A stretch of 64,000 bases of DNA, from IMG/VR virus record IMGVR_UViG_3300035670_000149, positions 1 through 64,000 of that record. One strand, written 5' to 3'. Position 1 is the first letter of the stretch. Each line of letters starts with the position of its first letter. The notes under the pieces were generated by a model. That model was not told the origin of the DNA and did not search any database. It saw nothing but the letters and a program-made list of their open reading frames with translations. Below are positions 59,283-63,380 of this stretch, piece by piece. A program made the translations under genes and the position numbers. The DNA is from a virus.

Positions 59283-59369
59283 TTATCCAAGAGTTGCAAT
59301 GTAGTATTGTGCTTCTTGGAGTCTTTTCTGTTTTTGAATTTGTTTACGAATTACATTCAACCAATTCAT
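59283..59369 (-). CDS. 28-residue peptide downstream of the riboswitch operon
   Basis: MNWLNVIRKQIQKQKRLQEA then QYYIATLG; positively charged amphipathic helix. Preceded by a strong ribosome site (AAAGGAGG) and coupled to the YRGV peptide gene by an ATGA overlap. Function unknown. Confidence 0.65.
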   Translation of the reverse strand: MNWLNVIRKQIQKQKRLQEAQYYIATLG

Positions 59370-59503
59370 TTTGTTGCCTCCTTTACAAACTTAACTCCAC
59401 GATATGTTTCGTTGTATGCTTGAGGTTGTTGCTGTTGTTGTGCCTGTGCTTGGCGACGAACTTCGGTGTCATATGGGACACCACGATATACTACTTGTGA
59501 CAT
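59366..59503 (-). CDS. YRGV-type (DUF4278-like) small protein
   Basis: 45 residues: MSQVVYRGVPYDTEVRRQAQ, a Gln-rich stretch, then ETYRGVKFVKEATK. Two YRGV/Y motifs are typical of the DUF4278 proteins of cyanobacteria and their phages. Strong Shine-Dalgarno (AAGGAG). The leader at 59534-59634 resembles a glutamine riboswitch, so its expression should follow the glutamine level. Confidence 0.75.
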   Translation of the reverse strand: MSQVVYRGVPYDTEVRRQAQAQQQQQPQAYNETYRGVKFVKEATK

Positions 59504-59533
59504 TAGGTTTTCTCCTTAGTTGTTTAGGTTAAA

Positions 59534-59634
59534 GAGCGTTCCTTCAGTCGGCGTTTGCGTTCGCTATTTGCAAATAGCGAATGAACGATCCGTTCCGCGT
59601 CGGCTTACTTCCGTTCCCATTGGGAATGAACGTA
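59534..59634 (-). promoter_or_regulatory. Glutamine-riboswitch-like leader, apparently duplicated
   Basis: On the minus strand, CGTTCATTCCCAATGGGAAC then CGGAAGTAAG, a GCCGACGCGGAACG segment, then a second CGTTCATTC followed by a hairpin (GCTATTTGCAAATAGC), GCCGACTGAAGGAACGC. The pieces CGTTCA, GGAAGTA and GAAGGAACGC are the conserved core of glnA / Downstream-peptide RNAs, known to bind glutamine. Two CGTTCATTC...GCCGAC blocks are present, so tandem or interrupted aptamers are likely. Fits the YRGV peptide gene 31 bp downstream. Confidence 0.65.
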
Positions 59635-59639
59635 AGATC

Positions 59640-59668
59640 ATTATAGATCTTATGCATTATCTAGTCAA
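59640..59668 (-). promoter_or_regulatory. Promoter of the riboswitch-peptide transcript
   Basis: TTGACT (59663-59668), 17 bp, TATAAT (59640-59645). Transcription should start near 59633, at the first base of the leader RNA. Confidence 0.75.
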
Positions 59669-63223: not shown

Positions 63224-63380
63224 TTGAAAAGGGTAGGTATGATCCAGGGGGTATCTGGATGTTACGGTATTCCCCACACTACCCTCCAGTGTGGGCATGA
63301 GAGACTGTGTTTAACCTCCCCATAGGTCTCGGTTAGGAAGAGGAATCAGAAACGTTACGATTTGTTACGTTTCTTAATGT
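63224..63380 (-). promoter_or_regulatory. Structured 5' leader of psbA
   Basis: About 155 nt between the expected start of transcription and psbA. Two hairpins: ATCCAG/CTGGAT (63242-63259) and CCCACACT/AGTGTGGG (63273-63295). The latter is near the ribosome site area. May affect translation or RNA stability. Confidence 0.55.

Follow-up and report, generated by a model that had tools for sequence, protein, structure and literature searches.

The question raised by this locus is whether the leader of a small phage gene can sense glutamine and, if it can, whether the two similar blocks that it contains are two aptamers in a row or the exchanged parts of a single structure. The window analysed is a stretch of 64,000 nucleotides from a 72,627-base IMG/VR virus record (IMGVR_UViG_3300035670_000149) which carries psbA-, phoH- and thyX-like genes, a gene content that appears like that of T4-like cyanophages. 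Phage glutamine riboswitches are already known (PMC9964418, PMC9004378). A sequence-only reading of the window had proposed a promoter, a structured leader with the core pieces of glutamine-binding RNAs, and a DUF4278-like gene, with the leader holding two blocks that each end in GCCGAC and that might form a tandem or interrupted aptamer.

The promoter, the core pieces and the open reading frame (ORF) with YRG motifs were all found on the minus strand (Table 1). The structured leader is also present, although its extent is corrected to 59632-59537, and the unit is completed by a second small ORF and a terminator-like site that the earlier reading did not include. On the minus strand CGTTCA is found at 59632-59627 and 59587-59582, GCCGAC at 59604-59599 and 59552-59547, whilst CGGAAGTAAG begins at 59613 and GAAGGAACGC lies at 59545-59536. 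The window contains the full pattern of two halves a single time, and 100 dinucleotide-preserving shuffles did not contain it at all. The transcript would be expected to start a few bases 5' of the aptamer.

Two further observations were made in the window. The -10 box upstream of the element (59634-59651, minus strand) lies within an inverted repeat, as it does in many relatives, and the arms of this repeat vary by locus and remain complementary (AGGTC-TATAAT-GACCT, AAGATC-TATAAT-GATCTT, GAGAT-TATAAT-ATCTC), with the longest arms near these boxes clearly exceeding those around control TATAAT sites. A PhotoRC-II RNA (70 bits) is found at 63259-63357 on the minus strand, in the same region in which psbA is matched.

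Table 1. Features of the leader and its transcription unit, in window positions
Feature	Position	Strand	Evidence or remark
Promoter TTGACT-17-TATAAT	59668-59640	minus	11/12 consensus match
Structured leader	59632-59537	minus	glutamine-riboswitch-like
Outer P1, 5' strand CGUUC (A 59627 next)	59628-59632	minus	invariant 60/60
Outer P2 hairpin UUCCC-AAU-GGGAA	59614-59626	minus	100% cells paired
CGG (putative pocket G, then base of long-range pair) and AAGUA, loop E 5' half	59606-59613	minus	
P3, 5' strand AGCCGACG	59598-59605	minus	covaries with 59546-59553
Inner permuted P1 GAACG-GAU-CGUUC	59583-59595	minus	RNAalifold; 98% cells paired
Inner P2b hairpin UUCGCUAUUUGCAAAUAGCGAA	59560-59581	minus	compensatory changes; nested-ORF site in relatives
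Inner CGCAAA: putative pocket G and C pairing long-range with linker G 59590	59554-59559	minus	
P3, 3' strand CGCCGACU	59546-59553	minus	covariation
Loop E 3' half GAA	59543-59545	minus	single copy in element
Outer P1, 3' strand GAACG, with C 59536 of outer long-range pair	59536-59541	minus	
Anti-Shine-Dalgarno CUCUUUA	59530-59536	minus	7 pairs with 59512-59518
ORF1 ribosome binding site UAAGGAG	59512-59518	minus	sequence
ORF1, 45 aa, two YRG motifs, glutamine-rich middle	59503-59366	minus	DUF4278-like; phrog_5049
ORF2, 28 aa basic helix-like peptide	59369-59283	minus	phrog_545 E 2e-6
Intrinsic terminator-like hairpin and T run	59276-59251	minus	closes unit after ORF2

The earlier reading had suggested a covariance scan with the Rfam glutamine and Downstream-peptide models as a check. 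With cmscan the glutamine model RF01739 gives two matches in the leader, one of 33.8 bits (E 6e-6) and one of 23.7 bits (E 0.004). Both fall under the Rfam cut-off of 35 bits, so that membership by score is not reached and Rfam scanning of the window at default settings leaves the leader unmarked. In relatives, single RF01739 matches cover only the 5' half of the element; the Rfam model captures just one half of these elements. The Downstream-peptide model RF01704 (Glutamine-II) scores 16.5 bits in the window against a cut-off of 33, and membership of class II was rejected on this score and on the absence of the class-II pseudoknot order. The core of the leader is glutamine-riboswitch-like as had been claimed, with two RF01739 matches and with the parts of class I present once the blocks are combined. 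The P1 strands CGUUC/GAACG and the P2 hairpin are found as such, whilst the loop E (AGUA/GAA) leading onto P3 is obtained only by joining block 1 to block 2, a joining that is supported by the covariation of P3.

The class-I glutamine aptamer needs a loop E, with AGUA following P2 and GAA preceding the last strand of P1. In the leader this loop is split, AGUA being found only in block 1 and GAA only in block 2. Viral contigs were scanned with a pattern that required only the outer parts, separated by a gap of 40-70, which gave 106 elements without two complete aptamers and 16 with them; no complete short aptamer lies inside the element of the window, compared with two in each of the 16 true tandems. 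Although the pattern did not require it, a middle part of the form CGGAACG-linker-CGUUCA-P2b-CGCAA is common to 100 of the 106, as read by eye from the scan listing, the other six being one apparent chance match and five elements with different inserts in P3. In two of these five (L092 and L117) the middle is a plain hairpin, with the P3 strands and both outer halves kept. At least 249 strand-swapped elements, 197 of them distinct, were found in cyanophage-type viral contigs and phage records; the duplicated form had been thought unusual, and this holds for the form itself but not for how often it occurs.

Comparison of these elements allows the pairing to be followed. With 60 distinct elements and unprompted, RNAalifold pairs the first CGUUC (59628-59632) with the last GAACG (59537-59541) and the middle GAACG with the middle CGUUC. 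It also draws an extra CGG/CCG helix in block 1, which was rejected as it is impossible in relatives that have CGC or AGUCG. The P1 strands are invariant across the elements examined, therefore there is no covariation support for the pairing of P1, whilst outer P2 has compensatory changes in all three pairs counted. For P3, which resembles a palindrome, the observed covariation score is reached in 0 of 500 shuffles and slid registers score near 0. Among 144 distinct elements with an 8-bp P3, the last pair is UA in 90, GC in 47 and AU in 7 with no exception, and the first is AU in 117, GU in 17, CG in 8, GC in one and AC in one. In most elements P3 contains two C.A mismatches, usually at the third and sixth places, where some elements have UA or AU instead; a 5-bp form, AGUCG/CGACU, is fully paired. 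Parsimony on a FastTree tree of the downstream gene DNA counts at least 36 changes of the last P3 pair and at least 10 of the outer long-range pair, numbers that recombination may inflate. The two GCCGAC copies that had been taken for a repeated domain are both present, and are rather the two strands of one helix.

It might be assumed that the leader is an ordinary tandem, each block being a glnA aptamer with its own P1 and the two acting in series as in the known doublets, which are common in the literature (PMC9481103). Each block does contain CGUUCA, a P2 hairpin and GGAACG, cmscan gives two adjacent RF01739 matches and true tandems with two complete aptamers do occur in other viral contigs. 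Yet the window leader does not have two complete aptamers side by side, the P3 strands covary only across the blocks, the outer long-range pair shows no mismatch even in elements whose halves lie 138-192 nt apart on either side of an ORF, and the modelled tandem fold, at -17.0 kcal/mol compared with -21.8 for the nested fold, is 4.8 kcal/mol less stable. With loop E split and the covariation crossing the blocks the tandem reading is rejected, and we regard it as very unlikely. Of the two forms first suggested, tandem or interrupted, it is the interrupted one that the comparative data favour, in which a single class-I aptamer takes its 5' half from block 1 and its 3' half from block 2. This topology of the outer aptamer is well supported.

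The computed energies leave room for a further reading, a bistable switch in which the four P1 strands exchange partners, with tandem P1s when free and swapped P1s when bound. The two CGUUC copies are identical, as are the two GAACG copies, so both registers can form, and their energies lie within 5 kcal/mol. However, in relatives whose element contains an ORF the second pair of strands is far off and, apart from P1, no helix specific to the tandem register is conserved. An invariant P1 can show no covariation, and such a switch is considered improbable. In the unconstrained minimum-energy fold of the leader P2, inner P1, P2b and the anti-Shine-Dalgarno helix are kept and outer P1 is absent, and P3 adds almost nothing to the computed stability (-21.8 kcal/mol with it and -21.7 without).

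The swapped arrangement raises the question of what the inner module does. The class-I structure has a pair between G23 and C60, of which C60 directly follows P1, and the class-II counterpart is C19:G41 (PMC6698751, with class-I construct numbering from PMC5393176). The glutamine pocket in PDB 5DDP and 6QN3 consists of C1:G59, G2:C58, G22 and G23:C60 (PMC6698751), and bases of the CGG in the outer part of the leader are equivalent to G22 and G23 of 5DDP (PMC6698751, PMC5393176). The outer long-range pair, between the CGN and the base after P1, is complementary in all 249 elements, being G:C in 164 and C:G in 85. In the inner module CGC is accompanied by a linker G in 196 elements and CGG by a linker C in 8, whilst 43 have NNGN linkers, in which only the third base could serve as the inner partner, and two further elements break the inner rule. 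With its equivalents of C1:G59, G2:C58 and G22 the inner module keeps every contact between RNA and glutamine that is named in PMC6698751, and because of this GGAACG-GAU-CGUUCA-P2b-CGCAAA is probably a second pocket in a circularly permuted form. P3 would connect it to the first pocket, and the GAU linker would close it. The leader would be expected to bind glutamine, and its two sites may do so cooperatively.

Alternatively glutamine would be bound by the outer aptamer only, with the inner block acting as a structural extension or as a decoy that resembles the pocket without binding. The inner block has no loop E, a plain hairpin replaces it at two loci and the geometry of a permuted pocket is inferred. 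However, its pocket bases are kept in the 100 of 106 elements that were found without requiring them, and the inner long-range base switches together with its partner (C:G in 8), which would be needless for a mere spacer. A single pocket is therefore held to be somewhat unlikely, and a second, permuted pocket is the reading that we follow.

Not all relatives have a plain hairpin at P2b as the window copy does. Among the 249 elements, 94 have a long inner hairpin of 138-192 nt, and these make up 79 of the 197 distinct ones. All 79 distinct long inserts contain a nested ORF, a feature that the earlier reading had not anticipated, with its ATG 3-5 nt into a hairpin with a stem of at least 4 bp. 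In 73 of the 79 the stop codon is made up of the T of P3 and the GA of loop E. The last codons of the ORF are the pocket bases. Of the 79, 76 have a single open forward frame and 77 have a start and a stop in matching phase, whilst a comparable open frame is found in none of the 118 short elements. Differences at the three codon positions number 1039, 527 and 1874, and single-base codon changes are synonymous in 990 cases and not in 463, these counts being over all pairs of 150-nt freshwater-type sequences and hence not independent. On the downstream-gene tree at least 34 switches between the nested and the short form are counted.

The nested protein, of about 50-66 aa with two conserved cysteines and a C-terminal DAKAD or DAND, matches phrog_504 and is annotated as T4-GC 430 in P-SSM4, S-SM2, P-SSM7 and S-SSM7. 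The nested ORF is also present in DSL-LC03 (L431), where it is unannotated. For P-SSM4, which is outside the fully parsed set, the annotation and a match in two pieces suggest that the element is nested. Nested ORFs are found at L434, L556, L559-L562, L430-L432 and approximately 80 IMG/VR loci (e.g. L399:9419, L252:2547). Separate manA RNAs (184-188 bits) are found at a distance of a few hundred nt from the glutamine-riboswitch match in P-SSM4 (L558:114-299) and P-RSM6 (L559:1069-1254).

These forms allow a more tentative proposal, that the permuted second pocket, head to head with the class-I aptamer, makes a cooperative two-site switch that doubles as a container for a gene. The nested start codon would lie in the hairpin of one pocket, the last codons would be pocket bases and the stop would lie in the outer aptamer. 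Translation of the nested ORF, at low glutamine, would then exclude folding of the riboswitch and translation of the YRG operon, at high glutamine.

How the leader might act on the gene behind it is suggested by the sequence that follows P1, where CUCUUUA is placed to pair with the ribosome binding site of ORF1. An anti-Shine-Dalgarno helix of 7-9 pairs is found in 79 of 88 distinct short elements with a C after P1; L244 and L267 have alternative helices of other sequence, and in marine relatives the helix is weak and not clearly kept. As C59536 is shared by the outer long-range pair and the anti-Shine-Dalgarno helix, the two states compete. In the mechanism proposed, the 5' half from block 1 and the 3' half from block 2 would together give a class-I (glnA) aptamer that has all of P1, P2, loop E and the long-range G:C, and P3, formed from the two GCCGAC strands, would lead into the second, permuted module. 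Glutamine would stabilise this swapped fold, and with C59536 held in the ligand-dependent pair the 7-bp helix hiding the ribosome binding site would lose its first pair. The freed site would then turn on translation of the YRG peptide and of the helix peptide coupled to it. The ON direction is taken from the known systems, since glutamine switches of both types, 1 and 2, are activators; in cyanobacteria they are found in front of DUF4278 genes (PMC6316151). It seems likely that the leader is a strand-swapped two-site glutamine riboswitch that acts as a translational ON switch, and it is probably the switch of a two-gene operon of DUF4278-like small proteins.

That the leader precedes a DUF4278-like peptide gene, as first proposed, is borne out by a Pfam match of ORF1 to DUF4278 (PF14105) with an E of 0.00086, its 20.1 bits being under the gathering score of 25.3; the two are related at best and no membership is assigned. 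The match of ORF1 to the PHROG family phrog_5049 has an E of 7e-14. ORF1 is itself rich in glutamine (QAQAQQQQQPQ) in the window and in many close relatives, but not in most marine ones. The start of ORF2 overlaps the stop of ORF1 (ATGA). Of 81 relatives that have an ORF2 of this kind, 78 show the overlap as well; S-CREM1 has the YRG and helix parts fused in a single protein, and marine phages have the helix part ahead of the YRG part. This pattern of overlap, fusion and order suggests that ORF1 and ORF2 may act together. Searches of NCBIfam, Pfam and PDB sequences gave no usable function match for ORF1, ORF2 or the nested ORF, and in NCBIfam and Pfam the helix peptides do not match the glutamine synthetase inactivating factors IF7 and IF17. 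The link to glutamine synthetase is drawn only from IF17, in which DUF4278 makes up the N-terminal part (PMC6316151), and from the weak similarity of ORF1, and a role in the control of nitrogen or glutamine synthetase may be suggested on that basis.

The strand-swapped element is real and widespread. Its short form is carried by S-CREM1, S-PM2, P-TIM68 and Bellamy, and its nested form by DSL-LC02, DSL-LC03, S-SRM01, S-SM2, P-HM2, P-RSM6, S-SSM7, P-SSM7 and S-SSM4. An exact scan for the CGG form in 84,980 bacterial and archaeal species genomes gave 86 matches, none of which is a full element and none of which is from a cyanobacterium by title, and for this form a bacterial origin was rejected. 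Once its blocks are combined, the element has the P1, P2, loop E, pocket bases and post-P1 pair of the Glutamine-I glnA motif (RF01739; 5DDP-5DDR), but P3 is a short hairpin in the latter and a long-range helix enclosing the permuted module in the phage. With Glutamine-II (RF01704; 6QN3) it shares the CGC with a G after GAACG in the inner module, and both precede small DUF4278 or DUF4278-like proteins. The 6QN3 crystal contains a strand-exchanged dimer of two molecules (PMC6698751), whereas the exchange in the phage would be within one RNA.

Tandem glutamine riboswitches, of which 157 doublets and 4 triplets are reported (PMC9481103), likewise place a pair of glutamine-type units in the leader of a single gene. 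They are described as side-by-side units, whilst the phage element has exchanged halves, and some of the published doublets may be the strand-swapped form counted as two matches. True tandem or single glutamine riboswitches also precede very short basic peptides (MTKYQ...NPFYP and MTLWTRYCR... are examples) in L025, L007, L013, L023, L135, L177 and others, which form a possible family of glutamine-controlled phage microproteins. The S-CREM1 element has the same strand-swapped architecture before a YRG gene (L001:1561-1653); it has been published as a glnA element with an Rfam score of 44.0, and the available part of that paper does not discuss its topology (PMC9964418). In Synechocystis, IF17 (gifB) similarly has a type-1 glutamine riboswitch before a DUF4278-type small protein (PMC6316151), but the phage proteins are of 40-60 aa and, unlike in IF17, no glutamine synthetase inhibitory part was identified in them by sequence. 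No description of the exchanged halves, the permuted form or the nested ORF was found in the literature searched, coverage of which is partial and leaves priority uncertain.

Strand exchange between repeated aptamers would be a new route to a two-site riboswitch. The exchange of C:G and G:C at both long-range pairs provides natural compensatory mutants, and in the relatives with a nested ORF the same bases must both encode a protein and form a ligand pocket, which is unusual. Whether cyanophages read the nitrogen state of their hosts is an old question, and as the element is carried by cultured phages (S-PM2, S-SM2, P-SSM7, P-HM2, S-CREM1 and S-SRM01) such a reading becomes directly testable.
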